Shown here: in pieces, positions 4,801-28,012 of the stretch
Position numbering within the stretch: position 1 is the stretch's first letter
Layout: each line of letters begins with the position of its first letter
The notes under the pieces: model-generated
Seen by the model: only the letters and a program-made list of their open reading frames with translations
Told to the model about the DNA's origin: nothing
Databases searched by the model: none
Assembly: GCA_000310025.1 (NCBI GenBank)
Contig: FN649733.1
Span: forward strand, 2,340,905 to 2,373,454
Direction: 5' to 3'
Origin: Ectocarpus siliculosus
Taxonomy: Eukaryota > Sar > Phaeophyceae > Ectocarpales > Ectocarpaceae
DNA: 32,550 nt
Program-made: the position numbers and the translations under genes

Positions 4801-7800
4801 TCAACAGCGCGGCTGGAGAAGACGCCATTGAAAACAGTGTTTTCGAGGGTAACTCGGCGGGAACGGGAGGAGCTCTGAGACTAGCAGGCGAAGCATACAT
4901 TTCCAACTGTTCGTTCCTGGAAAACACGTCGGACGAAGGAGAAGGGGCAGCCGTGTCCAATATCGGCTTCCTTTCCAGCATCACAAACGCCTCTTTTGAC
5001 GGCAATGGTTTCGACTGCCCAGCGGGAACGTTTCTGAACGTCACAGGGGTGAGGATTTTGTCGCTCTACCAGGTTGATATCTATCTGTGTTCTCGGTTGT
5101 AGCTGTTTAGACGCGTATCTTGTCACCCAAGCCTACTACTTACTGTACGTAAATACCGATGTTGCCCAGGGTGTTTTCGATACGAGCACGTCGCACAACA
5201 AATGACTGAGTCAACTCTCGACTATGCGCTTTTCACTTACCACTATTGCGAGTTTCTTCACTACGGGTCGGACCAACAACCTAATACCTAGGTTCAGCAT
5301 CCCTTCCTTCTTTATTTTGTGTACCTCGTGTGCCATGCGCTCACTTTTGCAAGTTTCGTACCCCAGAGAGATTCGAACTGCAATCCTTCCCTTCTAGACT
5401 ATATAGACAACAAAACACACTGCCTGCTGTCGATTTTTTTCTTCGACACGTGCTCCGCTCCTCTAACTCTTGCCTTTTCTATAAGAGCACACCAGTTGCT
5501 GCCCGTAGAGACTCACTCAGCACCTCAATCCGTGACTTTGTGTGTGTGTTCGCACCGTCTACACCAGTAGACTACTGCTGTAGTCATCTATTCTCCGCAC
5601 GTGGTTGGAAAGACTCACAAGACCTGCAATTAATTGTGTGCTGGGTTACAATATCAACATTCGACTGCTGTACATACGACCAACAAAGACTTCTTGACTT
5701 CTTGGCGGAGGATGCGCTGGTAGAGAGAACACGCTGGTAGAGAGGATGGCCTATAAGAGCGTGAGAGGAGGGTGAGCTCTTTCTGGCGTACGGGACTACG
5801 GAACTTAGCTTCGAAGCACTGCAGTAGGTGTACTTCGCTGTACCACAGTACTGTAGAAGAGTAGCGCCGCAACGCGGCGGGACTGCTAGTTCCCCCGAAA
5901 AGGAACATTAACATTCCTCGCGGCGGGATGGCGGAATTGTTTGTGTACAGCAGTGTACAGTGTACAAGTGTACGCTTTGTGTGTTGTGTACAGCTAGCAC
6001 AGCAGGTGTCCGCAATCGGGTACATAGTTCCCGCTGAGGAACATCCATCCCTGGTTTACGGCTGCAATGGCAACATGTCAATCCAAGCTGTCAACCAGAC
6101 GCGTTTCCTCCCACATGGAGTCTACAAATAATTAATTAATGCGTGCAACCCGTATCGTCTAGACTGTGAGAGTCTAGACTATACTGCATGTACAGTAGTA
6201 GAACCGTGCACTTTTTGGTGCCCTCCCGGAGTTAATGATCCACCCCACCGTCTGATGCAGTATCATCACTGACGTTGTGGCCGCTCACGAAAATCTTAAC
6301 CTAAGAACGCCGCTTTGACGCGTATGCGGCCTTCTCGCAAGCTGTTATTGCTGCCGCGCAAAGTTCGCGCGTCGTACAGCAGTAGTGCTAACCCGTGCAA
6401 GCCTCCGCTCTTTTGGCTGTGTTCGGCGCGTGTCAGTCTGGCGATCACTTCGAGGCCATCTGCAACGGATGCGACACCACTTGCGACGGATGCGTCTTCG
6501 CCGAAGGGTCGCTGGCTCCGATCTGCACAGAGGTGATGGACCACTCCACCAGCGATGGTGGCAACGTCACCTTGCAGACGCTTTCGATCGACAGGGGATT
6601 CTGGCGAGCCAGCGCGTCCAGCACGGAAGTTCTCGCGTGCTACCACGCCGACGCTTGTCTTGGTGGAGTGACGGGGGCATCCGGATATTGCGAGGAAGGC
6701 TACGAAGGGCCATGTGCGTGATGTTGTGCTAACCGGTCGCTATGAAAGAGCGCATGTATGGTGTTCGTGGGCCTTGAAAGTAGGACGCCTGGGAGCTCGT
6801 CGTGTCACGTGTGTGTTATTCGGACACAGCTTGATACGTGCCCGTGACACACCGACGTAGATCTTGGAGCATTACTTGTAGTTTAGATGCGCAAGTTTCG
6901 TGTAGAACACGTTGTCAACTGCTGAGGAAATTGCACAGAGCAGCAGGGGGCTGTTTCCCATCACCACACTTGAATGGAAAACTGCAACGTATGGATATAC
7001 GCCCAGCCTGATGATCTAACAACCCGCCCTCAACGTATGGCCGGCATTAGAGAAGTTTCTCGCCGCGGGGCAGATCAGGCAGTTCCTGCCCAGCTTGTCT
7101 GGTCACAATACGCCCACTTCCCCGACATGGAATGACCAAACCACGTGTGAACGAACCCTTTTTTTACTCCCTTCAAGCTCGCAGCTACGTTCGAAAACCT
7201 TTTCTCATCTTGCTCGTGATCCTGAATGCCCCACATTTCGTTCCCGTTTCCGGATCGCTCACAGATTGCGGCATCTGCAGCGATGGGTATACAGAACAAC
7301 TGAGCTTCGCTTGCAGCAAGTGCTCCGAAAACAGCGCTGGTGGTATCGCCGTCGCGGTTGTTCTTGCTCTCCTGATCCTCTTCCTGGCCGTCGCCGTCGT
7401 CTCGTACGTGATTTCGGGAGAGGTCGGCATGGGTCGTAAGGGAGGAATCGTGGAGCGCGTGACGCGGTACATACCACTCCAATCCTTGAAGATCGTGATC
7501 GTTTCGTGGCAGATCCTCACACAGGTGATATGATGGGTTTGTCGCGTGTTGGGGCTTGTGCGAGCCGTTCCGTTTTCGCGGGTTGTCGTACCAATCGCTG
7601 CCGTGCCACAAGACGGCGTTGGACTCAGAGGTTAGCACGGCGAATAACGGATGACGACATAAAAAACTTTTCGCACGCCGAGCGGGTGGGTGCCCAGCGT
7701 ATTCAACGGCACACATCGCACATTAATTTACACCCCCCAACACATGTAAAAGAGAACGCTTCAGCGCCGACCCCCTTGTCTTACTTCATTCTGTTGCTGG

Positions 7801-9068
7801 ATGCCCATAAGTCGACGGATGCTCTTCGCGCCAGCCGAGACGTTCTCGGCATGCCGATCATTAGTGGTCGGTGGACAGCCTACGAAAGCACTGAATCAGT
7901 TGTACGTCGGTCGGCTCCTTCCACACGACCCATGAGAAACCTGTCCATCCACCACCGTCGGCCTATGTTGATCCGTCAGGTAGTCTAGAAATAACAGACA
8001 AGACCCGCCGACGGTGTGTGTTCATCCGCATGCCTTTGCCTACAATCCCCCCTTGGCCTTGTGAAACAGTTCACTTCTGTGGCGAACGTCACCTACCCAG
8101 ACGTGTACCAAGAGTTGTTGGACGTTCTGGACGTGTTCAACTTCGACCTCGGCTGGCTTCTCTCGGCAGGGTGCGTAGTCGACATGAACTTTCACGACCG
8201 CCTCCTGGTCTCCACGATCAGCCCCATCGTGGCCCTGTTGCTCCTGGCGTGCACCTACGCTGCGGCCGCACGAGCAAATCGCGGAGATCCCGAGAAACTT
8301 AGCATCATCTGGAACAAGCACGTGACTATGGTGCTCTTGCTGATGTTCTTCGTGTACTCGAGCGTCAGTTCCACCCTCTTCAGGGCTTTCGCATGCGACG
8401 ACCTGGACTACAGTAAATACTACCTCCGTGCAGACTATAGCATAGAGTGCGATTCCTCTGAGCACAGGGGGATCCAGGTGTACGCGGGCTTCATGATTGT
8501 GATCTACACCGTGGGCATTCCTGCCCTCTACGCCGAGCTCCTGTTCAAGAATCGCGACGTGTTGAAGGACGAAGATCCCGACCGAGAAGAACCTCCCCGC
8601 GTCAAATCGATCTCCAATCTGTGGGAACCGTACAAGCCGGCGGTGTTCTACTACGAGGTGATCGAGTGCTTCCGGCGGGTTCTGCTTGCCGGCGTGGTAG
8701 TGTTCATCTACCCCAACACGGCGGCGCAAATCGCGGTGACCCTTTTGATCGCCTTCGCTTTCGCCCTGCTCTCCGAAGGACTCGCTCCGTACGCATCCCG
8801 GTGGGACACCTGGATCAGCAGAATTGGGCACATTGTCGTATTCTTGAGCATGTACGTCGCCCTCCTCCTGAAGGTAGACGTATCCGACGAGCGGGCCAGC
8901 AGTCAGGAGGTGTTTGAGGGTGTCCTTGTGGCGGTCCATGTGTGCATGATACTGGTCGTGCTGGTTGAAGCCGCTGTGCAAGCGTGGTCATTGCGGCAGG
9001 AGCGACGTGCTCTGTCGACTGCACCACCCCGCTTCCGTAGCGGCAAGTCCTTGACCCGTAACCCGTAG
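1849..9068 (+). CDS. LNR / polymorphic-membrane-protein-repeat / polytopic membrane protein, five exons
   Basis: Exon model: 1849-2016, 2346-5048, 6437-6713, 7265-7524 and 8070-9068 (TAG), giving about 1,468 residues. All introns are GT-AG and phases agree. ATG 1849 is chosen because a hydrophobic signal peptide follows, ending near AAQ-SDSC at residue 27. Residues 31-58 form a Lin12/Notch repeat split by intron 1 (CSYDGGD joined to CCYCTC). Residues ~100-930 hold about 27 copies of a ~30-37-residue unit with GGA[IVL] and F-x-x-N motifs, as in chlamydial-type POMP repeats, a predicted right-handed beta-helix. Exon 3 supplies a Cys-rich segment reading across intron 3 as GYEGPYCGICSDGY. Exons 4-5 supply about seven or eight membrane segments, including WQILTQ joined to FTSVANVTYP. 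This resembles the TRP-like C-terminus annotated on POMP-repeat proteins of brown algae and other protists. It is probably a cell-surface adhesion or sensing protein; ligand and channel activity cannot be read from sequence. Confidence 0.88.
2017..2345 (+). other. Intron 1 of the LNR/POMP gene
   Basis: The donor GTGAGT directly follows the GGC GAT codons of the LNR. The acceptor CGCAG precedes TGCTGTTACTGT. Joining restores the GGDCC core of the LNR in frame (phase 0). The intron is 329 bp and contains no other feature I recognise. Confidence 0.85.
2346..5048 (+). other. Exon 2: GGA/FxxN beta-helix repeat domain
   Basis: This single 901-codon exon encodes the repeat domain. After a Cys-rich lead-in, GGA-type motifs recur about every 30-37 residues: GGAIAAAG, GGAIFLSD, GGALYVTG, GGAVYARS, and on to GGALRLAG near the end. 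Many units also contain SWSG or SWxG before F-x-x-N, and numerous N-x-S/T sites suggest glycosylation. Units differ enough that the array looks old rather than recently expanded. The exon closes with DCPAGTFLNVTG followed by donor GTGAGG. Confidence 0.85.
5049..6436 (+). other. Intron 2 of the LNR/POMP gene, with an inverted repeat
   Basis: Donor GTGAGG follows GGG 5046-5048; the acceptor is TGTCAG ending at 6436 after a T-rich tract. Phase is 0 on both sides. At 1,388 bp it is the longest intron. It has no coding potential I recognise. It contains a perfect 9-bp inverted repeat (GTCTAGACT, 6157-6165 and 6171-6179, 5-nt loop) and scattered GTGTAC/TGTACAG words around 5,940-6,000, which may mark an old insertion. 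Confidence 0.75.
6714..7264 (+). other. Intron 3 of the LNR/POMP gene
   Basis: The donor is GTGCGT after the split Tyr codon (T at 6713). The acceptor CTCACAG ends at 7264 and AT at 7265-7266 completes TAT. The resulting Cys pattern GPYCGIC is what this family shows at this point. The 551-bp intron holds nothing else recognised. Confidence 0.82.
7525..8069 (+). other. Intron 4 of the LNR/POMP gene
   Basis: The donor GTGATA follows CAG 7522-7524. The acceptor AAACAG ends at 8069, after a pyrimidine-rich stretch around 8,030-8,060. Joining gives WQILTQ-FTSVANVTYP in phase 0, matching the conserved segment after the first membrane helix in related proteins. The 545-bp intron contains no recognised element. 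Confidence 0.82.
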
Positions 9069-10366
9069 TAAGTAGATCGGACGCTTTTCTTGCTATAATA
9101 GCTCTTTTGCTGACGAGGTCTCCAACAAGGCACGGCGGCACCGCAAGGTTCGTCGTGCGTCTGACGTGTTGCCTCGTGCACAGGGTGGGCACGCATGTGA
9201 AAGGCAGGCTGCCACTCGGTGAGAGGCGCCCACCCGAAGTCATGCGATGTATCGTGGGGGGGTGTGAGGAGGGGTCAACTGTGTTGTACTGCCATTTTCT
9301 TAAGACACCTGTGAAGTCCAATATTCGTTTTTTGGCTTTGACTTGCATGGAACTTCCGCGTTGGCTAGAGTATCTAGACTAATACTTTCGAGCAAACACT
9401 TTTTCCCCTGAGCAATAGCAATTTCTTTTCAAGGAGTTTTGCCTGATACGCGGGGGGTAGGGTGAACGGTTTGTGGTCTTGCAAGGTTTTAGGGAAGACT
9501 GGGGTGGATCTCACTCTTTTTGGGCGTGGAGGTTTTGGGGAAGGGTTTTCACCGACCCTTGTGCGACAACTCCCTCCCTTTTCTTCACAGCGTGTGGCAC
9601 AGATCCCAATACAATGGAACGAGTTCATATCGCCCCGTCGTCGTACGTAGAATAACTGTTCCGCGCTGTGTACAGGTATCGATATGCTGTACCTAGGGAT
9701 CATTGCGCTCCGAACAACCGCTTTGACAATTCCCACGGAAAACATTGTACGGTATAGTAATGGCGGCGTCCAAAGGTACGTGTTGGAGATTGACACGTAG
9801 GGCAACCCTGTTTGCGTTGTTTGGCGCGTTGTTTGGCTAGATGTATAACGGTGCTGCTCTATCCGAAACAGTGACACGTCGAACACGTTGAGGAGAGGAG
9901 AGAGAGACGCCTGCGTCTCGCGAAGCAAACAACCCGTACGGGAGGCGCGTAGTCGATTGGGGTACTAGCTGTTGGCCAGAACACCCTTCCCTCTCATTAC
10001 CCCCCGGCGTGTTGTTTTCTTTTGGTCTCTGGTTAGGTTTTCCAAATTTGTTCGACGCTAAGGTTTGTTCTGTGTCTGATACGGGGCGTCCCCTTTGACG
10101 TACGCGCGTACGGTGCAGATGAGCCTGACCGGCGAGAATGTGGCACGGGTTCTGGGTGGGGATGATAAAGGTCTTCTTTGTCTGCGGGTTGGAGTAGGGC
10201 ATACAGGTGTCATCGACAGGTGTCGTCATCATGAGCCCTCCACACGTTTATTTATAGATTGCCGTGTGCCCACGGCTGCTTCCCCAATTGATTTTTACTT
10301 CAAGTGCCGTTTGTCCTTGTGTACGATGGCGTCACACGAAGAAAGGCAGTACTACGCTTCGTAGGC
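9069..10366. other. Intergenic, no recognised gene
   Basis: This stretch presumably holds the 3' UTR of the upstream gene. The longest open frame (9374-9928 minus, 184 codons from a TTG) has no domain, no ATG near its start and no family resemblance I can see, so it is not called. Confidence 0.5.
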
Positions 10367-10508
10367 GGTTCCCGGTACTTTCTTCGTTTTTTGGTGGTAC
10401 ATTTTCGGCGGTCACCCAATATGACGACGGTACATTTATGGCGGTGCCCGGCACTTGAATTTTTGGTGGTACTTTTTCGGCGGTCACGCAATATGACTGT
10501 ACTTTTTC
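10367..10508. repeat. ~73-bp tandem duplication, two diverged copies
   Basis: Copy 1 (about 10,367-10,440) and copy 2 (about 10,441-10,508) share GGCGGT(T/G)CCCGG, TTTTTTGGTGGTAC, TTTTCGGCGGTCAC and CAATATGAC in the same order. Related TTTTTCGG and TTCGGCGGT words continue to about 10,560. The composition recalls the TTTTCGGTGAT words inside the hAT-like element at 16.5 kb, so this may be a remnant of a related element, but no terminal inverted repeats were found. Confidence 0.6.
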
Positions 10509-11043
10509 GGTGGAATGCGGAATTTCGTTTTTCGGCGGTGCGGCCTTCGGCGGTTCCCCGTACCACCGAAATGTGGCGATAATTCCTCGCGAAAATTCCC
10601 GGGGGAATTTCCCGCCGTGGTGGGCGGTCCCGGTACTGTTTCGATATTTCCGGGTGCGTGCGCGTAAGGTCGTCTCAACTTGTTCGCGCGAAATACAAGT
10701 AAATTAGTCATGGTCTCCAACAACAATAATAATAGTCCATCTAATGGCAGCGAGCAGGCACTGCTGGGTTCGTCCATGGATAGTTGTATTTTTGCTGTTT
10801 ATTTTTGCTCAAGAATTCTGGAATATTTTTCTGCAGGCAACCAAAGAAAAACCAAGACACATGAAACAAATTGAGAGCGCAGGTAAAATGCCGTCTTGCT
10901 CCCAACGTTTTCTTATCGGACTAACCCGTTGCACACTCCCCAAGATTGCCCTACTATCATTACAATTGTTTTGGCCTTTGGCCTAAACATATCTTACTCC
11001 ATTAGGCATGTCCGATGACCTACTCCTCCGAACCGCTCCCTGG

Positions 11044-12090
11044 TCACTCCTCGGGTTCCGTAAGGGCCTGAGACACGAACTTTGCTCCTTCACCCCCAGC
11101 CCTAACGTACACCATAAAAGCCGATGATTTCCACCTCCCGGCTCTCTGGATCTGGAATACCGACGCCCCCATACTTGCTAGGTGCGTGGCCCCCCCGATC
11201 CTCCCTGAATGCAACGCATATTTCTACGGGTCTCTACCCGCCACACTCACGAGTAACCTGAGGTGTCTCGATGCCTCCGCCCTCGAAATCACCTTCCACC
11301 TGTCTTGTGTTAACGATTGCATCAACGGCGCGTGACTCCCAAGCTCGGGGTGCAGATCTCACAGATCGAGTAACACCTTCAACGCTTCTCCCGATCTAGT
11401 GACGGTTGCTCCCAAACGTTTCTGATCTGCTTTTGACGCTCTGAACGTGACTTCTACTCGGCTAGCCTGCCTCCTGTCTACCCATGCAACCCTTACCGGA
11501 CCGCAAAAGAAACAAGAAACCCAGGTCTCCTCTAGTCAGGCAAAAATCTGAGTGCACGAGCCCCGAGTCGTCCGCCCAGATTTCTGAAGCTCGGCACATC
11601 AGCAGGTACGAGAGGGCAAGTCCACACCAGATCAACTTCCCTGATTCTCCCGAATGTTCGACCACGCTCTTTCCAGCCTCTAGCATGTCCCATGAAAGTG
11701 GATTCCTAATCTTAGGCTTCGTCTACGTATTGGCGTGGACCCTATCAATGGTCTTCAACGTGGCGAGGGTCTGGAAATGCGAAGTGGGCAACTCCCATCC
11801 TGCGTGCATCTTATGGAAGTACTTGATGGCTGACAGATACCCGCGAATAGTCTCACTCTGGTTCTTGTGACCGAAACACCGACAAGCCTTGAACACAGAC
11901 AGCTCACGCACCGCACTTTCCACCCCATCGCTCTCGCGGAGCCACGGGCCCGAACCCGCCCCTGCTCGAGCCTCCCTCCACGTGTTCCACATCCTTGGAT
12001 ACACCTTGTTGGTACCACTTCCCAACGACCCGAAGGTGAGTGCGTTGACCAACCGCTCCCCCTCGACGCTCGTGCCTCCCCGGCCATCCT
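11044..12090 (-). pseudogene. Tyrosine recombinase of the DIRS-like element (broken)
   Basis: The frame starting near 12,052 gives an N-terminal SAM-like region (ETIRGYLSAIKYFHKM). After one TAG (11,723-11,725) it continues to the first catalytic box, SYLLMCRASEIW, with Arg at 11,591-11,593. A frameshift between 11,460 and 11,280 leads to the second half: YALHSGRIGGATHLAS with His 11,209-11,211 and Arg 11,200-11,202, then AGRWKSSAFMVYVR with the nucleophile Tyr at 11,108-11,110, ending at TGA 11,044-11,046. The HSxRxGGAT and FMxYVR motifs are typical of DIRS-type recombinases, which integrate the circular cDNA. A TAG at 11,224-11,226 lies just before the HSGR box. All four catalytic residues named here are intact, but the gene cannot be translated through. 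Confidence 0.85.
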
Positions 12091-12390
12091 TTCCCTATGT
12101 TCCTGATATTCGATCACCGGGTTTACACAGCGTGAGGAATGCGCACATTTCGAGGTTCCTTTCTAAGGTACGACAAATTCATGCCGAACCCGGGGATAGC
12201 CCCAACTTGGCTTGAGGGGAGAACAGAAAACTTGGTCGTCCAAACCAACTCTACCTCCCCCGGCTATCCATTTCATCAAGGCGTCATGAAACAGTGAGTG
12301 TGATGCGTGTCTACCGCTGCAGCTTCTCGCTATCTCAATTCGTTTGATAATTCGTTGATCGACCAGAACGTAGAGCGGTGTCCAACTGCC

Positions 12391-14494
12391 CTACCTTCGA
12401 CCCCTCTGCCGTGTCAGATATTTCCTGTGCCTTGGACCATAATGTCCCATACCGAGTCGTCCAGACTTTCTTTTGGCAATTTCTTTTGGAGGATAATGCT
12501 GAGCAACGCTCGTCCCCCTTCCCCAATACCCTGCTGTGTCGACCCTGAGTCTTTCGCGATCTCGTTTTCTTCCCAACGTGAGATCCCGTCCGCGAGTGTT
12601 CTTTCGACCAGGGATGTGCTTGGCCACGTGGCACCAGCCGCAAGAAACTTCCATCCTACCCATGAGTCTCATTATGAGGCTAGCGCGCCTGTCACGCGAA
12701 CTCCCACACCTGTTAGTCCAACTGACGGCTGACACGTTGTCCCCACGCGTCAACACCTACTGCCCTTCTTCTACGGGTCTGTCTTTCAAGACCATTTGGA
12801 CTACCCACGCCGTCATGAACATGCCCGTTAGTTCTAACACATTGATCGTAATGTCTGACGTCTCCTTCACCTGCGCCTTGCGCTTGAGCTCCGCAGACAA
12901 CGATGGTTCGATCGTGTATCTCCAGAAAGTCTTAAGTTCGGGGCAGTAGCCGCCAATCGCTGTGAAGCTAGCGTCTGAGAGGTGGAGGCGTGATGGTGCT
13001 CGTTTTACGTGGAGTAGGAACGATGCGCTGAGGGACTCCCCTCGAAGGGCCAGGGGCTGGTTGGTTGAGGGCCCACTTCCAGAAGGCGATATCGCCGTGG
13101 AACTCTCTACCCAAGTCCACTAGACGTCGTGACCGTGTGTGTCGACTGGCTTGCGTATGCAGACCCGATAGGCGGAGCAGTTGCCACACAAAGTACCTAC
13201 CAGCCCTGATAACATAAGTGAGGTTACACAGTTTTCCTGCAATGCTGAAGACTTCTTGAATACTGGCCTTCTTCCTATCGTGGGGCCAATCTGCCTCTAG
13301 GATGTTCCGAATCGCGCTTACACAATCGGGTGTAGTTGCAATTCTGCCATCGTGCGTGTCTATGGTGTACCCCAGGGCCTCTATGACCGTGTCCCAGTCA
13401 GTGCTCTTTTTCGGGGCGAGAATGGGGGTTTCTCCAACTTCTCCCTTGCCAAACAGTCTGACATGGTCTGAAGCTAGCGAGGCGGAAGCAATGAGTGCCG
13501 ATTCGTCAGTGGGGTCATGCTGGACCTTCGTGAGCAAGATATCGCCAACGTAGACCCTGGCCAAGAAATCGTCCGCGGGTCCCCCGCCTCTATGCGGTTG
13601 TACGCCTGCCGACGATGGTATTGGGGTTGGGGTGCCTTTTTCCCAGGGGGGATATTTTGACGTGAGATATCATTGCGATTCCTTCTGGTAGTAGTCGGGC
13701 GTTTGCGAGGGACGTGTTGCGGTGCGAGTGCTCTGCAGCGGAGGATAAAACACCCCACAATTCTGGTGACGCTGCCCAGCCAAATGTCAGCCGTAGATCC
13801 GCTACTAGCACGTCTCCTATCACGTAGCAAAACTTGTGAGCATGATCTGGTGATATCCTAACATTTCTGAACGCTGAGGTTACATCAGTCTTGGCTGCGA
13901 GGATTCTCTTGTCGGGCCATCTTACTCGTAGGCCAGTGAGCTCGAGGAAAGGCAACGTGGTACTCCAGACATGATGGTATCTTTGTTGAGCCCACCTTTT
14001 GACCCCTTGCTTGTGCTTGGGCCAAAAGAGAAGTCGTTGATGATCCTCACTTTTTTCCCTGGGACCGCTCCCAACGGAGCTACTCTAGTCCCACGTACGT
14101 CCGATGCGTTCGCCTCTCTCAGGACGATACACCTGTTACGCTTGACATCGTCGCATAGTTTTTCCCAAACTTGTGTTTGGTGATCGTCTACGCTACGGTG
14201 GTTGCCGTATGCCAAGGCCTTCTTGAGGTTTTTCTGCGAGACTAGAGTGGGGGCAGGGGCTCCTTCACCGACTATCTCAATGAGGTCATCGATACCCGGG
14301 AAACCCTTCTCCTCTCCGAAATACTTCTTGACGTCGCTCACGTCCAACGGCGGTGACACCAAAGTGCCGCCGATTCCCCTCGCGACGTCTCCCAGCCTTC
14401 CATCGTGGAGCTTTACCAAATCACTATCAATGTCCGCCATCTTCCGAATGATGCATTGTTTCTCGTCTCGTGAGTGTAGGCTTGACGCGAGCAT
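12391..14494 (-). pseudogene. Reverse transcriptase-RNase H of the DIRS-like element (broken)
   Basis: The order is that of a YR-retrotransposon Pol. The RT N-terminal part runs 14,494 to about 13,960 (VRIINDFSF). After a frameshift near 13,955-13,965 comes RT motif A (AAKTDVTSAFRNVRISPD) and FGWAASPELWGV. A second shift near 13,640 leads to DDFLARVYVGDILL; the usual YxDD catalytic box reads YVGD, with Gly at 13,544-13,546, so activity should be lost. The thumb/connection continues to WKWALNQ, then a third shift near 13,060 leads to RNase H: HLSDASFTAIGGYCPE, INVLELTG, an in-frame TAG at 12,757-12,759, RGDNVSAVSW and AKHIPGRKN. The Asp, Glu and Asp positions of RNase H are visible. RNase H is followed by the recombinase on the same strand. 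Confidence 0.85.
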
Positions 14495-14578
14495 GCTTCT
14501 CTGTACCTCGAGTCTATCGGTCAGAGTTTTTGAAATTTTCGAAAATGTTGTCTTTTTTGGACTCTCTAGGGCCGAAGG

Positions 14579-15535
14579 TTATTTCCCCGCCCCAAAGTGA
14601 CAAGTCGCTGAATTCGACCCGCAACCCTGTCGCATTACCTTTGTGGTGTCAGCGGCCCTAGCAGTGTCCGCCGCTAGTACCCTACGTGCCAACAGCAGTG
14701 CTTCCCCCGGGGGCGGACACCCCGGGGGAGCTTTCGACACGGTCATGGTGTCCGCCAATTCCGTGTCGTTCCCACGAATGGTGTCCGCCAATCGGGGCTG
14801 TGTGACTGACAAACTCTTACGCAGGGTGTCCGCCCTGTGTATGTCCTTCTGCACACTACTGGTGTCCGCCAGTATTTTTTGTTTACCGACAACGCTCGCG
14901 GCGTCCACCGCTTGCGTGCCGCGGGGCCACTTATATTCGCCCGGGGTGTCCTTCCCCGAGGCGACTGCATTGCGTTGTTCAGCACGTGTGGTGTTCGCCA
15001 CAATCTTCGTGGTTTACAAGGCAGAGCAGTAATTGATCCCGCTATTGGTGTCCACCAATAGGTTTTCCGTTAGTGTGTTTTTCGCGGGAACGGTTTCCAC
15101 CGTTTGCGGGAGTGAAGGTAATGCATGTTCACACCGGGTGTCCGCCCGGTGTGTGTCAATATTCGCATAATTGGTGTCCGCCAAAAGTTGTGACTTATCT
15201 ATCACCAGTGCGGTGTCCTCCGCTTGTGTGTTGTTTGACCCGTAATTAGCGCCGAGGGTGTCCGCCCCCGTAGCTACTGTTTTTGACGTTTTGGTGTGAG
15301 TGGTGTCCGCCACTGTGCAGGGTGAAAACGAATCCAAACAGTGAACAGTATGGGAAATTACAGGTTCGCAACTCATGCTCCACCATAAAACACAGCGGGT
15401 GCCATCGACCCGGGAAGGGCAACTCCCACACTCGCTACTGTCCTTCTGCTGTCCGCAAAGGCGTTTGCTCCCGTGCCAAGCTCGCCACCCCCCCTTGTCG
15501 GCCCCACCTCGTGGAAGTGGGGCCCGCACCGTCAC
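14579..15535 (-). pseudogene. N-terminal (Gag-like) frame of the DIRS-like element with Ala-Asp-Thr repeats
   Basis: One minus-strand frame runs from 15,535 to 14,579 with a single TAA at 15,014-15,016 and ends at TAA 14,579-14,581. Beyond that TAA the same frame continues without another stop into the RT ORF that starts at Met 14,494. The whole 1.5-kb stretch therefore looks like one former polyprotein frame with two point stops. The protein is built of a spaced peptide, usually [LRV]-A-D-T, recurring most often every 15 residues (LADT, RADT, GADT, VADT, with variants ANT, KDT, VDA, VDT, VET, EDT). I recognise no capsid or zinc-knuckle motif, so 'Gag-like' rests on position only. Each A-D-T is encoded by the loop of a small DNA palindrome (see the hairpin array). 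Confidence 0.6.
14658..15314. repeat. Array of ~16 in-frame palindromic hairpins with covarying stems
   Basis: Fifteen units share the plus-strand hexaloop TGTCCG or a one- to two-base variant, closed by GG/CC. Loop starts are at 14665, 14749, 14782, 14827, 14863, 14902, 14947, 14992, 15049, 15094, 15139, 15175, 15214, 15259 and 15304. A further copy (loop 14714-14719) has the loop reversed. Outer stems differ but remain complementary: CTAGC/GCTAG (14658-14677), TACTGG/CCAGTA (14857-14874), CTATTGG/CCAATAG (15042-15061), CACACCGGG/CCCGGTGTG (15130-15153), AGTGG/CCACT (15299-15314). The unit at 14735-14768 has an 8-bp outer stem, CGACACGG/CCGTGTCG, around an internal loop. Same-orientation loop spacings are all multiples of three. 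Read as minus-strand RNA, the loops would be CGGACA. A decayed extra unit is at 14647. Confidence 0.85.
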
Positions 15536-15730
15536 GGATTGGTACCGCCACGGCCTCCTCCCGCGCTCCCTCCACCTCCTCCTCCTCCTCCAGCTGCTCC
15601 TCCTCCCTGGCCGCCTCCATGGCTGTACTTGGCGACTGGTGCTTGTGTCGCTCTCGGGGCAGGGGGGGCACGAACGGGCGGAGCGGGTGGAGGGGGGGGG
15701 GGGGAGGAACAGCAGGCAAGAGTGTAGGCT
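15536..15730. repeat. Low-complexity purine/pyrimidine tract
   Basis: CTCC/CCTCCT runs around 15,555-15,615 and a G-run near 15,690-15,705 dominate. On the minus strand they give a Glu-rich peptide (EEEQLEEEEEVEG) in a frame different from the hairpin-array ORF. This could be the shifted upstream part of the retrotransposon's first protein or only simple sequence; I cannot decide. Confidence 0.5.
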
Positions 15731-16082
15731 CAGCCTTGATAGACGCGTCTATCTATTCGTCTTACTCCGTTTCCCACAGAGAGGTCCGTCTAAGCCTCGG
15801 TATGACAGCTTAGCACGTCTTGCAGTCGACTTAGAGGATGGGAGATCTTCAGATACGGCGTCTGAGCAGCTATTTCCGAGGTGACACGACATGAACACGC
15901 ACACAAGACACGTCCTCTCCGTAGAACTAGTTATCCTGCCCCTCAGGCCCATAATTTCATATTTTTCGGGTCGGACGGGTATCTTCTTGAATATTTTCAA
16001 AATTGATCACAATCTGGCGGCCCCCCTAGCCTCGCACACACGCACGCACACGCCCGCCACCTCGGGTCACAACCACAACGCC

Positions 16083-16152
16083 ACACACACAATGGCACCA
16101 CCGGCACCACCAGCACCAGCACCAGCACCACCAGCACCAGCAGGTGCTGCTG
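16083..16152. repeat. GCACCA/CCAGCA simple repeat
   Basis: Consists mainly of ACCACC, GCACCA and CAGCACCAG words, encoding Pro/Ala on the plus strand and Trp/Cys on the minus strand. No gene is evident around it. Confidence 0.7.
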
Positions 16153-16299
16153 TCAGCGCACCCGTTTCCACAAACTATCAGCCAGGACAACACCGTCGTG
16201 GCCCAGGCCAACGACGCCATGGTCGTATGTGCTTTTCCGTCGTTGACTCAAAAATCGCCCGCAGTTGGTTGTTGATTATTGTAAGAGTAATTATTTACT

Positions 16300-16530
16300 G
16301 GTTGATTCGTGTTTCCGGCTTGAGTAGAGCGATGGATGTCGTGTTGACGTTTGAGTCCGGATCGAACAACAGGCTTGAGCAAGTGTTCGCCAACAGTTTG
16401 TACGAATTGTGTAGTAAATGTTCTCGGATATTCGCTGGTTGATTCGTGTTTCCGGTTTGCGTAGAGCGATGGATGTCGTGTTAAGGTTTTGAGTCCGGAT
16501 CGAATAACAGGCTTGAGCAAGTTGCTCGCC
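16300..16530. repeat. ~92-bp direct repeat, two copies
   Basis: Copy 1 (about 16,300-16,391) and copy 2 (about 16,436-16,528) share GGTTGATTCGTGTTTCCGG, GTAGAGCGATGGATGTCGTG, GAGTCCGGATCGAA, AACAGGCTTGAGCAAG and CTCGCC/TTCGCC in order, with few substitutions and short indels. The second copy abuts the target site of the hAT-like element. They may be part of the retrotransposon's non-coding region, since such elements carry repeated termini, but this is a guess. Confidence 0.7.
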
Positions 16531-16549
16531 CGCAAGTTTCCCTTATTTT

Positions 16550-17153
16550 TAGGCCTGTGCTCGGTAGGTGATTTTTTTTTCTTTTTTTCGGTGATTTTTT
16601 CCGATTGCCAAAAAGAAAATCGGTGATTATTCTAGGTGCACTGGATATTTTTTCGGGGAAAATCGGCGACAAAAATAAGAAAAGGGTGAGAGCCAAGAAA
16701 GATTTTTCGGTGCTTTTCGGTGATAATTTGAAGGGTAGACTGCCGAAAACGTTCTTCGGCGATGTTCAGCGATGTCTAGGAAGTACTCCACATGAAAACG
16801 TTAAAACGAACTCTGGTGTTCTTTTTTTACGTATACCACAAGTGTGTCCGTACTGTGTACCGTGTGTGGGGGGGGTGTCTGCAGCGCGGTGCTTGGGTTG
16901 TGTTCGCTGTGTGCTGTGTGCTGTTGGCTCTGCTGCTGTGCTGCTGCGCTTGAGGGGGGTATCTGATGGGATTTGCGGGGTACGGCCTGTATACATGGAG
17001 CCCCCTAAAAAAAACGGTAAAAATCAGTGAGGCGCCTCCCGTTTTCGGTGATCGGCCACTATTTTTTCGGTGATTCAAATTCCTCACTTTTTTCGGTCAA
17101 GTTTTCAAAATTCGGTGCTTTTCGGTGATCACCTACTACCGAGCACAGGCCTA
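16550..17153. mobile_element. Non-autonomous hAT-like MITE, 604 bp
   Basis: The left terminus TAGGCCTGTGCTCGGTAGGT (from 16,550) is repeated inverted at the right end (17,128-17,153), which carries a 3-base insertion (TAC). Identical 8-bp sequences CTTATTTT flank it directly (16,542-16,549 and 17,154-17,161). An 8-bp TSD with a TAGG start fits the hAT superfamily. Near both ends the word TTCGGTGAT or TTCGGTGCT recurs at least eight times (around 16,582, 16,620, 16,708, 16,717, 17,044, 17,068, 17,112, 17,121), as expected of subterminal transposase-binding repeats. The 141-codon open frame inside (16,605-17,030) has no transposase motif and is probably chance. The exact TSD suggests a fairly recent insertion. 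Confidence 0.85.
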
Positions 17154-17572
17154 CTTATTTTCCGTATTCCATGTTGTCTGGTGGCCCGATTAGAAGAGAG
17201 AAAAGCGTCTCCGTACAACCTGTCCGTGATTTCTTGCATGAAAATAGTACCGTGCAACAGCAGTCCATTGGTGCACACGCATATCATGTACCTGGTACCA
17301 TGGTGGTAGCTGATATCATGCACGGAAGGCCTTGCGAACCTGCTCATCTGCGCATACTACACTGCTGTACCACTCTTCGGGCCACTCTGTAAAAGGCAAC
17401 CTGTAGGTACACAACAGTCGTGTGCAATACACCTCGAACAACTCTCTATCGAACACCTCCAACATGTCGTGAAACTCGACCCCTTCATCATGTGTACAGG
17501 TTGTGAGAGCGGTCTCAACCTACTTAAATGAACCATCGATGACTATGCATACGTCATCTAGACAACCCATAG

Positions 17573-17655
17573 ACGCACTTAGACGAAACTTAGATGTGTT
17601 AAGACGAAACTTAGATGTGTTAAGACGAAACTTAGATGTGTTAAGACGAATCCTA
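17573..17655. repeat. 21-bp tandem repeat, three full copies
   Basis: AGACGAAACTTAGATGTGTTA is repeated at 17,581, 17,602 and 17,623, with a partial copy from 17,644 and degenerate TTAGACGC words on both sides (17,575 and around 17,665-17,690). The three full copies are identical, pointing to recent slippage. Confidence 0.9.
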
Positions 17656-17805
17656 TATTTCTAAGACGCCGGATAGACACACTTAGACGCGGAATAGGCA
17701 TTAAGATGATCCAAAATTTTTTCGCCTGCGGCGGGCTTAATCCCGCTACGCGCGATATTCTCAGTCTGACTTAAGCCGCGCTGCGCGCGTCTATAAAGGC
17801 TGCCC

Positions 17806-18583
17806 CTACAAGAGTGCCGGGTGCCGCTGGGTGTGCCCCTTCTCGCACCGCGGGCGTGTGCAGGTAGTGCCCGACCACGTGTAGAAGCACTCGTTGTCGG
17901 GAGTGTTCCAGGCGGCGACGGTCTGTGCAAACGCGTTGGCGGCTGCCGTGGAAGCGTATGGGACTGGGGCAGCGGGGGTGCGGGCAGGTTGACCCTGTGA
18001 AGTAGCCTTGCGCTTGGTGCTCGCGGCGGCCGTTTTTGGCTGCTGCTGACGGGCTAGACCCCCCTGCAGGAGACCCACCATCGAAGAAGACGTACCCTCC
18101 GCAATCAGGATCAACGTCCGTGAGAACTGCGGGACTTGGATCGCCCCCACCGTATTGGGGGGTGGAGGGGAGAGGGTGTTGCGCTGACGGAGCGCCCTAG
18201 CTTCGGTGGTCAGACGACTGACGAAATCGGCCCAATCGAGGTTGGCGTCTTGCTTGAACCTGGCGATGACGTCGGCCTCGCGGCCCTTGTACTCAGCGCA
18301 GTGGCGGGACGAGTAACGGCGAGCTTTTGGTATCCCTGGGGCGCGGCCGACGAGGACTGGTGGTAGTGCTGGAGATCCTGCTGCTGCAGCTGCTGCTGCT
18401 GCGCCTGACCTGCTGCTGCTGCTGCTGCTGCCTGTTTTGGGCGTCCCCGCCACCGGCGGCCGAGCTTGGAGGACTGCCGTCCGCCGACTTGCCTTGACTG
18501 GCCGCCGCGGCGCCCGCGACGCCCGCGGCGCTGTTCGTGCTCGCCGGTTGCCCATCATTGCCGTCCGTCCCAAAATCGATCAA
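17806..18583 (-). CDS. Gag-like low-complexity protein with C-terminal Cys/His motif (possibly degenerate)
   Basis: The open frame from 18,573 to 17,806 encodes about 255 residues. The first third is Ala/Ser/Arg low complexity over a CAG/CTG repeat (18,365-18,432). In the alternative frame (18,583-18,293) the same repeat encodes polyglutamine, so the true N-terminus may switch frame there. The middle contains an acidic/aromatic segment (ADVIARFKQDANLDWADFV). The C-terminus reads CFYTWSGTTC-TRPRC-EKGH, a C-x8-C-x4-C-x3-H arrangement resembling zinc-binding motifs in Gag proteins of YR retrotransposons and CCCH fingers. It lies on the same strand as, and upstream of, the DIRS-like element, so it may be that element's Gag displaced by insertions, or an unrelated retroelement fragment. 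I do not recognise a specific family. Confidence 0.45.
18365..18432. repeat. CTG/CAG trinucleotide repeat
   Basis: Imperfect runs of CTG interrupted by CAG, CGC and ACC. On the minus strand they encode Gln, Ser or Ala according to frame, within the Gag-like ORF. Confidence 0.85.
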
Positions 18584-18599
18584 ATCCTAGGCGGCACCC

Positions 18600-20970
18600 C
18601 GTGTTTGCTGCTCCTCAAAGCTGCTATCTGTGCTACTCCTCTCCTTCTCTCAAATGTACTTGCTTGTCTCTCGCCCAGCGAGAGCACAAAAACTTTCTGA
18701 CACCAAGGCTGTCTCTATTTTTCTTCGATCGCCGCTTTTCCGAATTCCAACACGCCTCCACAAACCACGGATTCAAATACGTACTGAATCTTCACATTCT
18801 CTCTGCTCCGCAAGGTCTACATTTTCCCCCCAAGCTTGGGTCTCTATCGACCTCTAATTTCACTTTTTTTTCTGTCCCTGTCTTTTTCATTCGCATAGCC
18901 CACCCTTTGCCCAGCAGGGTCTCAAATGCTCATCTCGATCGACAGTATGGTCAGAGGGACGGGGGTGGGTGCCTTCTCAAGAGTGCATGCCTAGCAGTGG
19001 GTGTCTTCTCGAGAATTATGCCTTGCCTTCTTTCGCTCTCGTCTCTCCTCGCCTTTCGCCGGTGGGGTCCCCACGACAACACCAACGAACAACCTCGATT
19101 GGTTTTTTTCTTGCTGACTGAGTAAAGATGGGTGCTGCCAGGGAATGGGCATGACCATAATGCTTGCTGCAGTGCCTATGTGACAACTTTCGGGGATGGT
19201 AGCGTACGCACGCATGATGTTGCGTTGTACGTCATTATTCATGATGATGTGGGTTGATGGTGTTGTGACGAGAACTACAGCAGTAAATGCAAGTTTGCCC
19301 GGGCGTTTTTTGCTCTGCCGAGTGACAGGGACTAATTTTTGAACGATCCGCGCGTTCTGGTGGTCTCCTTCATTCGGGTGGGTGTGATACTGCGTACTGG
19401 ACAGATCATCAGCGAGCATCATTAGCGAGGAGATTGTTGACACAGCATCGAGTCCCTCGACACGAAAAGTTCATACAGTGGGTGGCCCGAAATACATAGT
19501 GGCATGTAGGGGCAAGAGGAGAATATGCCATTTTTCAGGGCAGTGCCATTATTCGATATATTGGGCTCATGCACATGTCGAGATTGATTGTGACAAGAGA
19601 TATGTATTTATGCCCTATAGGGATGGATGACGGGAAATTCCACTATTATGGAAGTTGCCACTATATGGGGCCATACGCACGCATGGATGGGCGTTCTGAG
19701 AAGTGCCCTCTCTCTCCGTTCCAGGGCCGGTCGCGGCTGTTCTTTTCGGGAGCGCTCGAGCGACATGTTCATCAGACCCTCCGGCCGACCATGCTGGCAA
19801 ATTTTCAAGCCTTTAAGGAGGACTATTATTGCTGGTTATGGTCGGTGTTTTAGTTATATTTGGAGTTTGTTACTAGATGCCGCACTCTACTTGCCGTTTT
19901 CGGCAGTGTCGGGTACGCACTCGGCGGAGTTGACATGTCGCTCGCCGCGTCCATCGGTCCGCTTTTCTGGACGCTCCCCTCTTCTCTCAGATTAATTTCT
20001 CTCAGAATATTCGGAAGATAGAACAGAACAGGCTTACGATTCCTGGAGAGCCATTGCTTCTTGCGGATGGGGATGTTTAAGGACGTAAGGCGAGATCGCC
20101 CGTGTAAGAATACGTACGACAAGAGGTCTACTCCTCCTGCGGCTGCAATCGAGCATGGTGGCGAGGTCTCGCCTAGACCACACGCTCCTGCCCATCGTTG
20201 CTGCTGGTGATTGTGGTTGTTGTTGTCATCAGCTGACTGTGATCACAGAAAAAGTGCCCGGACTACGAACCTCAGCCAGAACGGTGGTGTATTCCCGGTG
20301 TGGTGACAATACTGAAGTCCTATGATTGAATACGGCATAGAATGACCTCTGCGCAGCATAATTGTGCCATCAGGCTCGAACGTGATATATTTCAAGTGCT
20401 TCCGGAAATACCGCATTGATTGGTGTAGGAGGGCGTGTTACAGCTGTCCGATTGAACCTACGCGTGGAATGCTCCGGATTCACGCTACAGTCACCAGGTA
20501 GAGCTACTGCGGGCGCGGCATTTGATCCAAGGTGGTGTGAACGGAGACTTGGGATATGGCCGAGAACGTGACGTTTTATGTAGATTGAACGCATTACGTT
20601 ACTGTAGATGTCACAATACTGCCCTCGCTGCCTGGCTGTGATGACGATCCCTCTGTCTGTGTGGCACAAGAAAAGTTCCAGCGAGAGGAATATGCGAGAG
20701 ATTCTCGAAAGTGCGGCAGAGACAGAGAGGCGTGTTCGAAAACCTCTCAAGTTCGAGACTCGGTGAGTAATTCGTCAGCATTGGAAGCGATCCACCGGCA
20801 AAATCTATGCAGACAGCACAGAATCACGGACATACACCCGCGTGCATCCAGAGCGTCGAAAACCAGAGGTCTTGAAAATTTCCAAACAACAAGGACGGAG
20901 ACCGCCGGCCGCAGTGTTGTATACGCAACATGTGCAGCGCTTGAGATAATCTGAGGAATGTGTACAGCAG
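18600..20970. other. No recognised gene
   Basis: The open frames here (for example 18,466-19,125 plus, 18,991-19,443 minus and 20,370-20,750 minus) are short, lack domains and have unremarkable composition. No terminal repeats or RNA genes were seen. Confidence 0.5.
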
Positions 20971-22014: not shown

Positions 22015-23527
22015 GTGCGCACCACAGAGACACGTGGCTGGATTGACATCTCCCACGATAGTCAACTCGCCCAGAGGAATTTCTTGAGCTCAGAAGTGAG
22101 ACACACATCGTCTATCATACCAGGCTACGAAGAGCGTTCGAGCATCCTGCAGGATCTCGGAGACACAACATTCAAACTGGTGCGCGATAGGGCCACACCC
22201 GACCAGTGGGCCGAGTGGCTGAGGGCTCCGCTGGAGCATGCGGCAGCCACGGGTAACCGTGACCTGGTAGATAAGCTGCTGGGAGCCGGGGCCAACGGCG
22301 GTGCCGGTTGGCGGGGTTGTCATGGCAAGACTCTGCTTCATGCGGCTGCTGAGGGCGGCAACGTGCAAGTAATCACAAGGTTGCGCAATGCAGGGGCAGG
22401 GGAAGACATGAAAGCGAAAGCCCTCGACACCGGGCATACACCCCTGGATCTGGCGGTTATTGGCGGGAAGGAGGCTGCTGCAAAGGCGCTGATCATGGCT
22501 GGGGCGAATGTGAACATGCTCGACGCCACGAATGACGGCCCGCTTCACCTCGCGATCACAGGGGGTCATGTGGGAATCGCCAAGGATCTGCTGCTTAGCG
22601 GAGCCAATCCTGTTCAGGCAGGATCGAACGACAATTTCGCCATCCACCTCGCTGCTTGCTATGGTTTAGATGAGGTGGTGTTGGCATTGGTCCAGAAGGG
22701 CGTTGACCTGAATTGCGTCAACACCAGAGGAGAAATTCCCCTCTGTGTGGCGTTGAGAGGGGACCACGTTGCCACCATAAAAGTGCTCGCGCTGACCCCA
22801 ACTTCAGACATTTTCTGCACTTCGCAGCGCGCGAGAACAAATCGGCCGCCATCCGAGCGTTGCTCGAAGCCGGAGCCGATATCGAAGGTCGGAGTCGGAT
22901 CGAATCAACCCCACTCCATGCCGCAGCATACTTTGGCTCATGCGCAGCCACGCTGACTCTGTTGGAACTGGGAGCCAACGTCCAACTCGAAGGGAAAAAG
23001 AGGATTTACCCCGTTGTACTGCGCGTGTTCGCAGGGCGATCACGACTCCGCGGACCTGTTGTTGAGATGGGGTGCGGACGAGACAGCCGTAGACAAAATG
23101 GGAGAGACCGTCGTCTCCACGGTGATAAAATGTGTCGCTGGAGCCCCCGAAGCTTCTCGCCCGTGTTTCCACGCTACTGGCACGTGCTCCGCAGGACAGG
23201 GCCTGACGTCGCTGGGGCTTCCTGGTCGTTTGCCGTGCCCACCCAGACAGGGTGCGGCTGGCAGCGGAGGTCCCTGCCGCAGCAGCTGAGGCTACCGAGC
23301 AGCTGCAGGAACGTCCGAGGGGTCGTGCTAGGACGGGCCAGGTGGAGGTCGAGGCGGAGGTGGATGAGACAAACGGAGGCGGGGGTGGAGCAGGCGCGAG
23401 GACTGGCGATCGAGCCGGGATTGAAGCTGTCGGTGAAGGCACCGTTGGCGAGTTTGATGGTGTGTCGGCCTGGATAATGGCACTGGCAGAGGAGGGCGTG
23501 TTCCGCAGGATCGTGGGCTTCCTGTAG
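22015..23527 (+). pseudogene. Ankyrin-repeat protein, brown-alga type, broken by frameshifts
   Basis: The leader reads FKLVRDRATPDQWAEWLRAP, which I associate with a large Ectocarpus ankyrin family, followed by ankyrin units such as GKTLLHAAAEGGN, GHTPLDLAVIGGK, DGPLHLAITGGHVGIAKDLL and FAIHLAACYGLDEVV. The frame then shifts three times: near 22,785 (continuing ADPNFRHFLHFAARENKSA), near 22,995 in an A-run (continuing GFTPLYCACSQGDHDSADLL) and near 23,120-23,150 (continuing FLVVCRAHPDRVRLAAE). There is an in-frame TGA at 23,204-23,206. It ends AEEGVFRRIVGFL and TAG at 23,525-23,527. Joined frames match one gene, with no room for introns at the shifts. No ATG lies upstream of the conserved leader in frame (22,015 is GTG), so the first exon may be missing or spliced from upstream. 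Ankyrin repeats mediate protein binding. Assembly errors are an alternative to real decay. Confidence 0.8.
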
Positions 23528-27722: not shown

Positions 27723-28012
27723 AGAGGGGTTGGGTTTGGGTTGGGTTGGCATGCGTGCTGGCACACAGAGGTTTTGGTTTGGTTTGGTTAGGTTTGGATA
27801 GGTTGGGTTGGGTTGGGGTTGGGTTGGGCTGGCTAAAACGGTTTGGTTTAGTTAGGTTGGGTTAGGTTGGGTTGGGTGGGGTTGGGTTGGGATGGGGTTG
27901 GGTTGGGGTTGATTCGCCGCCGTCGCTTCGTCGTTCGTCACCGTTGGGTTGGGTTGGGTTGATTGGGTTGGTTTTGGTTGCCTTTGGTTTGGTTCGGCTA
28001 GGTTTGGTTATC
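27723..28012. repeat. Second G-rich TTGGG/TTTGG repeat tract
   Basis: It has the same sequence style and orientation as the tract at 140-420. Both contain a GCCGCCGTCGCTTCGTCGTT-type core (27,915-27,950 here), and both contain TTGGTTTTGGTTGC(G/C)TTTGG. The order of modules differs, suggesting repeated rearrangement of one satellite family. Confidence 0.75.

Follow-up and report, generated by a model that had tools for sequence, protein, structure and literature searches.

The window considered here, meaning the whole stretch of DNA that was analysed, comprises 32,550 nucleotides of Ectocarpus siliculosus (assembly GCA_000310025.1, contig FN649733.1, positions 2,340,905 to 2,373,454 of the forward strand). 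On its minus strand it carries a copy of a retrotransposon, and an array of hairpins, the subject of this report, lies in a rapidly evolving linker of this element that separates its probable gag-pol stop codon from the reverse transcriptase (RT). A preliminary description, made from the sequence alone, had placed the array in frame inside a retrotransposon, and this was confirmed by the colinear arrangement of other copies and by the frame of the open reading frame (ORF). The features of the window copy are as follows:

10798–18793, minus strand: DIRS-order (tyrosine recombinase) retrotransposon copy bearing the array, colinear with five other copies
18573–18793 and 10798–10999: repeats A1 and B1, respectively, located against copy L023; A2 and B2 were not found
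17806–18573, minus strand: remnant of the gag ORF, in which a CCCH-like motif was recognised by eye, without a Pfam match
15725–17808, no strand assigned: nested DNA transposon of 2,084 bp with imperfect terminal inverted repeats and an 8-bp target duplication, CAAGAGTG
15500–15534, minus strand: probable gag-pol junction, with UGA C.. at 15532–15534, a gap of 7 nt and a stable hairpin at about 15500–15524
13922–14494, minus strand: ORF piece between array and RT, with the start of the RT domain
12968–13564, minus strand: piece of the RT ORF with a YVDD-type motif (by eye; no Pfam match)

The host element and its copies

The copies share a colinear layout of gag, a long ORF containing the array, RT and RNase H, and a tyrosine recombinase, with RT and RNase H assigned by eye. 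In copy C11 the long ORF runs uninterrupted for 1,139 codons, beginning at a GTG. The recombinase matched the Pfam Phage_integrase family with an E-value of 0.001 and 19.3 bits, below the Pfam cut-off of 27.1, and has HxxR..Y-type residues by eye. For the RT, a YVDD motif can be recognised by eye and the genome holds many homologues, and there is neither a Pfam match nor a meaningful PDB sequence match; Pfam and PDB searches with RT and gag gave nothing above cut-off. By eye, Gag has a CCCH-like motif and a glycine-rich tail. Split direct repeats were complete in one of the six copies compared, L023, where A1 (7800–8027), B1 (912–1091), A2 (687–914) and B2 (393–572), all on the minus strand, stand in the order A1..B1 A2 B2 described for the DIRS order, with 98.7% identity between the A repeats and 100% between the B repeats. 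L022 has A1, B1 and A2, with no B2 found, and L026 has an A2 fragment only; neither A2 nor B2 was found in the window copy, C11 (L024) or C27 (L025). The host of the array is a DIRS-order tyrosine-recombinase retrotransposon. It shares the tyrosine recombinase and the A1..B1 A2 B2 repeats, with a putative RT, with the PAT-, Ngaro- and VIPER-like elements, as these are described in PMC6681497, and 15 Ngaro and 5 PAT-like families are listed for Ectocarpus in PMC12477816.

A DNA search of the genome (189 Mb, 492 contigs) yielded 31 matches at 16 loci, comprising 12 close copies, including that in the window, and four diverged copies (C55, C14, C16 and C25) at 67–78% identity. The arrays in C14 and C16 lie within one larger duplicated stretch that is 92% identical over 3.5 kb, and are not independent because they are copies of that duplication. 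(Loci L019, at C14:790000-796000, and L020, at C16:4599000-4605000, are 92% identical stretches, each with a fossil of the array and of the RT start.) Across element copies the array ranges from about sixteen to twenty-two hairpins. In nine of the 12 close copies the array measures ≈970–1030 bp and holds about 20 hairpins; those of the window copy, C2 and C30 are shorter, missing a duplicated block of ≈285 bp. The array in the window is real, but its copy is shortened and decayed, with an in-frame stop in the array and the nested transposon.

Hairpin units of the window array

The array consists of 16 homologous hairpins between 14651 and 15323 on the minus strand, read in the same frame as the RT ORF, matching the earlier count of about 16 short palindromes in 660 bp. 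Each unit has the layout stem-GG-CGGACA-CC-stem, and many have a second outer stem past a small internal loop. The loop and the GG/CC clamp had been described as near-constant, which proved correct for the clamp and for the GGAC core of the loop in 42 aligned units. In 15 of the 16 window units the loop is in the minus-strand sense and in one common codon phase, and all spacings among these 15 are multiples of three, as first noticed. The loop is inverted in the remaining unit. A covariance model built on the units of other copies, from which the bit scores below are taken, recovered 15 of the 16; the one that it missed was recognised in a phase scan. (The row at 14840 in that scan was a chance match and is excluded from the count.) The units are:

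14651–14684, minus: CTAGC..GCTAG, 26.0 bits
14700–14733, plus: inverted loop in the window copy and C2, sense in the other ten close copies, 24.0 bits
14735–14768, minus: short inner stem and 8-bp outer stem CGACACGG..CCGTGTCG, phase scan, missed by the model
14768–14801, minus: 30.6 bits
14813–14846, minus: 30.6 bits
14849–14882, minus: TACTGG..CCAGTA, 31.5 bits
14888–14921, minus: 27.6 bits
14933–14966, minus: 16.2 bits
14978–15011, minus: 21.6 bits
15035–15068, minus: CTATTGG..CCAATAG, 33.4 bits
15080–15113, minus: 25.1 bits
15125–15158, minus: CACACCGGG..CCCGGTGTG, 30.7 bits
15161–15194, minus: 20.4 bits
15200–15233, minus: 27.4 bits
15245–15278, minus: 27.4 bits
15290–15323, minus: 19.8 bits

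A scan of window positions 10300–19000 with the Rfam covariance models gave no matches up to an E-value of 1. A pattern of two adjacent exact cores matched the genome 89 times, 88 of them in copies of the array family, while the reversed pattern, used as a control, gave no match. A looser core pattern gave 117 matches, against three for its reversed control; among the 100 of these that were listed, three lay outside the array family. The 88 of 89 matches in one element family rule out a genome-wide palindromic element. The Rickettsia palindromic elements and the double-hairpin elements of organelles are likewise short palindromes, some of them in frame, but are dispersed through genomes, unlike the units described here. 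In IMG/VR, no RT relatives were confirmed; the paired-core pattern was found in at least 120 stretches, but the matches listed there were single, with no array, which reads as chance.

Pairing, mutational pattern and coding constraint

Pairing was tested on two sets of units. In the first, 31 units were chosen with a core of at least 9/10 and the stems disregarded; in the second, the alignment of 42 units, those with a core below 9/10 had been admitted partly on their stems, so the arm-swap test on the stem-blind set is the one to trust. In the 31 units, the fraction of Watson–Crick pairs beyond the clamp was 0.72, 0.63 and 0.56 over the first 3, 5 and 8 positions, compared to 0.34, 0.33 and 0.34 when arms were swapped between units, and none of 20,000 permutations attained the real pairing, ruling out chance pairing of the arms. 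The same held for C11 alone (13 units, 0/20,000 swaps). When the test was confined to the 10 units of the diverged copy C25, 501, 128 and 5 of 20,000 swaps reached the observed pairing at depths 3, 5 and 8; the signal is weaker in this old copy. In the 42 aligned units, the covariation score was 0.398, compared to 0.169 (standard deviation 0.019) in shuffled sequences, none of 500 reaching it, and slid pairings gave only 0.08–0.147. Of 41 distinct units, 39 have a standard pair adjacent to the clamp, and five types of pair occur there; pairs in which both sides had changed were no more frequent than shuffling would give (217/500 shuffles). The claim that the stems covary under a near-fixed loop is upheld, and covariation no greater than in shuffled sequences, which had been named as the outcome that would speak against it, was not what was found.

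The local folding of the array was compared to that of 60 synonymous-codon shuffles. For C11, the z-scores were −4.1 for the sense and −4.5 for the antisense strand, and for the window copy −5.0 and −5.5, whereas four stretches of RT in the same test gave −0.8 to +0.4. Folding of the whole array gave z-scores of −6.6 on the minus and −5.3 on the plus strand (20 shuffles each). The linker of C11 contains six perfect stems of at least 6 bp, compared to 2.2 (standard deviation 1.4, maximum 7) in 100 synonymous shuffles, a moderate excess. Since synonymous shuffles lose the local folding, the hairpins are not simply implied by the encoded protein.

The array contains an old internal duplication, in which blocks A–E and H–L share the spacings 45, 45, 39 and 36. 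Their gapless identity over 203 bp is 61% in the window copy, 62% in C2 and 63% in C11, and ranges from 0.53 to 0.64 in all 12 close copies, the lowest values arising where the blocks are displaced by indels or where a different duplicate had been selected. In the window copy, nine pairs that are Watson–Crick in A–E have changed, and four of them (A3, D2, E2 and E7) are kept Watson–Crick by a compensatory double change. Three of these four double changes are present in C2 (D2 differs) and three in C11 (E2 differs). Stem positions that pair show 20 distinct private changes among the 12 close copies, each of them single; no concerted double change was found among them. This pattern indicates that the resident copies decay and are not mutationally held palindromic, and it suggests that selection operates in the lineage that is active. 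Between diverged copies, internal loops have remained unpaired. The inverted loop at 14700–14733 sits between intact arms in the window copy and C2 (L002), and in none of the ten other close copies, probably reflecting strand exchange or a template switch at this hairpin in a lineage that later made copies.

The preliminary description had also held that the sequence is constrained as protein, and this part of the claim was not supported. Between C11 and C55, changes in the array (118 codons) are spread evenly over codon positions 1, 2 and 3 (31/32/30), with a ratio of nonsynonymous to synonymous substitution rates (dN/dS) of 0.76, compared to 59/42/162 and 0.15 in the RT and RNase H region (RT/RH). 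Between C11 and the window copy, the corresponding figures are 16/9/15 and 1.18 (162 codons) for the array and 25/21/73 and 0.19 for RT/RH. The codon-change counts in the array are small; over nine comparisons its dN/dS ranged from 0.41 to 2.03, with 0.32 in a row for a sub-region of C112, and that of RT/RH from 0.15 to 0.52 in the eight comparisons that reached it. The C112 pair, with 0.41 in the array and 0.34 in RT/RH, is too close to tell, and the array of C25 leans slightly to third positions (44/56/63). Within the loop, the two positions that are synonymous in Ala-Asp are nearly invariant, with G at position 2 in 40 of 42 units and C at position 5 likewise in 40, and positions 1 and 6, where changes alter the amino acid, vary (C29 T11 A2 and A37 G5). 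The frame itself has been kept open in C11, with no stop in 337 codons compared to 3–20 in each of the other five frames; the window copy has its in-frame stop. Beyond an open frame, the codon pattern suggests that the amino acid sequence of the array is close to free and the linker protein-permissive.

Upstream of the array, a common junction was seen in 22 of 24 sequences from five families, consisting of a stop codon, a stable hairpin and a GPT-type peptide in the RT frame; none was obtained for C55 and C25. Besides 15500-15534 (minus) in the window, examples are found at L024 4120-4180 and in L027, L034, L040 and L041. The stop is UGA-C in families I–IV and UAG-G in family V. The predicted stem starts 7 nt past the stop in I, II and most others and mostly 3 nt past it in III; a few outer pairs in IV and V are still nearer the stop. 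(The junction hairpin is GC-rich, and by eye its stem differs in a compensating manner between families.) By its sequence the junction looks like a programmed stop-codon read-through signal, and in families III and IV the gag frame enters the junction stop in frame. Counting against read-through, the long gag ORF of C11 is in a different frame at the junction, and family V has no open frame before the stop. In Tca2, a comparable sequence alone was insufficient in yeast, according to PMC2194720. Translation of the array probably occurs as part of a Gag-Pol product made by read-through, where the linker can absorb much change; in C11 its first hairpin lies ≈220 nt past the stop.

Related families and possible roles of the array

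The equivalent linker was inspected in relatives of the array family (family I), reached through RT homologues at 65, 59, 55 and 42% identity. In an RT tree of families from this genome only, with the root placed for drawing only and family V on a long branch, family II groups with family I with moderate support (84/84) and III with IV with 99/96. The family I core, allowing at most one mismatch, was found in none of the linkers of ten readable family II loci within the stretches fetched, but a core of the family I type stands just before the RT motif in four of the ten. (Loci L029, L042 and L043 were largely masked, and L031, L032 and L044 lacked a recognisable linker.) Instead, all ten (L027, L028, L030, L033, L045, L047, L048, L049, L052 and L057) carry their own in-frame array with the layout GACC-stem-loop-stem-GGAGAA, in which the stems differ (CCCCG/CGGGG, CCAATA/TATTGG, CTAGTG/CACTAG, CCGGCG/CGCTGG) and the loops are free. 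One hairpin type in this family has GNAA loops (GAAA, GGAA, GTAA) on a constant stem.

In a fixed register, pairing of the family II arms was 0.33 compared to 0.26 (209/10,000), and 1,241/10,000 swaps reached it in a restricted set. With a one-base shift allowed for real and swapped arms alike, a choice made after a register error, 4.11 of 5 positions paired compared to 3.17 in swapped arms (0/5,000; 18 non-redundant units from eight of the ten loci, L033 and L052 being left out because their array bounds were not found). In L045, CTAGTG/CACTAG has changed to CTAGTA/TACTAG. A stretch of 258 nt in the family II copy C3 gave z-scores against synonymous shuffles of −4.3 sense and −2.5 antisense, and decayed copies had weak or no excess folding (sense: L049, −1.7; L057, −0.15; L045, −1.7).

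These observations suggest that the array is a selected nucleic-acid structure in the protein-permissive linker of the Gag-Pol frame. As to its role, we give a probability of roughly 0.38 to the reading that it serves in RNA recognition or packaging and is recognised by Gag. In the sense RNA of the element, the array would then present a single kind of recognition hairpin many times over, and a protein, in the simplest case the Gag of the element itself, would bind its GGAC loop core. The repetition might provide a multivalent signal by which the element's RNA is selected and packed. The stems would be free to differ, only their helix geometry mattering, and their unlikeness could prevent pairing between units or loss by recombination.

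A packaging role would have analogies. Dispersed packaging signals in RNA viruses and hepatitis B virus likewise consist of several stem-loops, with a fixed loop motif in hepatitis B (PMC6281560 and PMC7612645), but the units described here are in tandem, mostly 33–57 nt apart in one retrotransposon linker, with a putative reader protein. Palindromes within translated genes are also described for nematomorph mitochondria in PMC6649704, but here the units share a loop. There is no mention of hairpins or secondary structure in the main text of PMC6681497 on DIRS-order elements, nor of hairpins or palindromes in PMC12477816 on Ectocarpus and PMC3783388 on fungal elements, and no hairpin array or internal packaging or assembly signal in DIRS-order elements was found in the literature surveyed, which did not extend to most subscription papers.

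Retroviral Psi-type packaging regions are cis-acting RNA in the element's own transcript, as the array would be, but consist of a few compact elements near the 5' end, whereas the array is in tandem and located after gag.

Several observations weigh against the RNA reading. Selection on the sense RNA should favour G-U pairs, so the lack of such a preference is a difficulty: at positions 1–5 of the 42 units there are 15 G-U and 16 A-C mismatches (22.4 and 25.6 expected from swapped arms), and inside the helices of the majority strings of 19 units there is one of each. Neither strand of the array folds much more unusually than the other, the antisense folding slightly better (mean −14.1 vs. −13.4 for sense). 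Five of the nine changed pairs in the duplicated blocks of the window copy are broken, four by single changes and one by a double change. Since two copies share the inverted loop at 14700–14733, the loop orientation of this unit is not indispensable. Family II keeps the flanks and not the loop, so that a single loop-reading protein cannot explain both families. The preliminary description had also called for a check for relatives without the palindromes. The answer is mixed: family II carries its different array, but no hairpin array was seen in families III–V, where hairpin counts equalled those of synonymous shuffles in family III (four loci tested of 13 fetched) and family IV (one locus), and the one locus of family V had no comparable linker. 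(The family III linker has recurring SDT codons; a candidate array there, with z-scores of −0.8 sense and −2.7 antisense on an internal duplicate, was dropped.)

A broader proposal, to which we would give slightly less than even odds, is that in one clade of tyrosine-recombinase retrotransposons the Gag-Pol linker carries a multi-hairpin module that is maintained while being rapidly renewed. Two sister families would have arrived at it by opposite designs: in family I the loop is fixed and the stems are free, and in family II the flanks are fixed while stems and loops are free. The family I linker protein would be nearly free and the coding DNA chiefly a structural scaffold. If so, this would be a coding sequence held open mainly as a frame around a structure. 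A natural array of sequence-varied hairpins with one loop would also provide an easy handle for finding the reader protein, and a natural comparison is at hand, since the two sister families differ in design and no array was found in two further relatives.

Alternatively, the hairpins might act as DNA, either in single-stranded cDNA or as cruciforms in a circular intermediate, in second-strand initiation, recombinase loading or protection. The replication of DIRS-order elements goes through a DNA circle, the pairing is strand-neutral, and the near absence of G-U inside helices is no less compatible with DNA than with RNA. The exact inversion of a loop between intact arms in two of the 12 close copies could be the footprint of an extruded hairpin or of template-switch copying, seemingly in a lineage that produced copies; sharing of this inversion slightly lowers the odds for the RNA reading and slightly raises those for DNA. 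However, the array lies within an open reading frame of the messenger RNA and is found in only two sister families, and in DIRS-order elements one would expect the recombinase sites to be terminal and not internal. On balance we regard a DNA role as rather unlikely.

Somewhat less probable still is that the hairpins influence translation or the folding of the RNA with no dedicated reader, for example by slowing ribosomes after the gag stop, compacting the linker or preventing other pairing. Both array families lie downstream of the stop-plus-hairpin junction, and family II retains hairpins but not loops, as such an effect would allow; it leaves the near-invariant GGAC loop of family I unexplained, and the ≈220 nt between stop and first unit in C11 is too far for the usual stimulators. 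That the array has no function, with tandem duplication and template-switch mutation between arms keeping the palindromes perfect, we consider improbable. The duplicated blocks are evident and the loop inversion shows that there has been an arm-to-arm event, but the single private changes in the close copies, the maintenance of unpaired internal loops between diverged copies and the retention of the loop at synonymous sites do not fit such a process. Conservation of a protein repeat (Ala-Asp-Thr, or ADT), with the palindromes as a by-product, would account for the in-frame recurrence of ADT and the stop-free frame of C11, but is highly improbable considering the codon-position and dN/dS results and the loss of structure in synonymous shuffles.

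Elsewhere in the window, a 900-residue ORF with Chlamydia-PMP-type repeats (Pfam E-value 4.3e-28) is found at 2400–5102 (plus strand) and an ankyrin-repeat gene at 22015–22956 (plus strand). The ORF at 8016–9068 has a sub-threshold match to TRP channels, and long arrays of TTGGG / GGTTG pentamers occupy 157–307 and 27776–28009.
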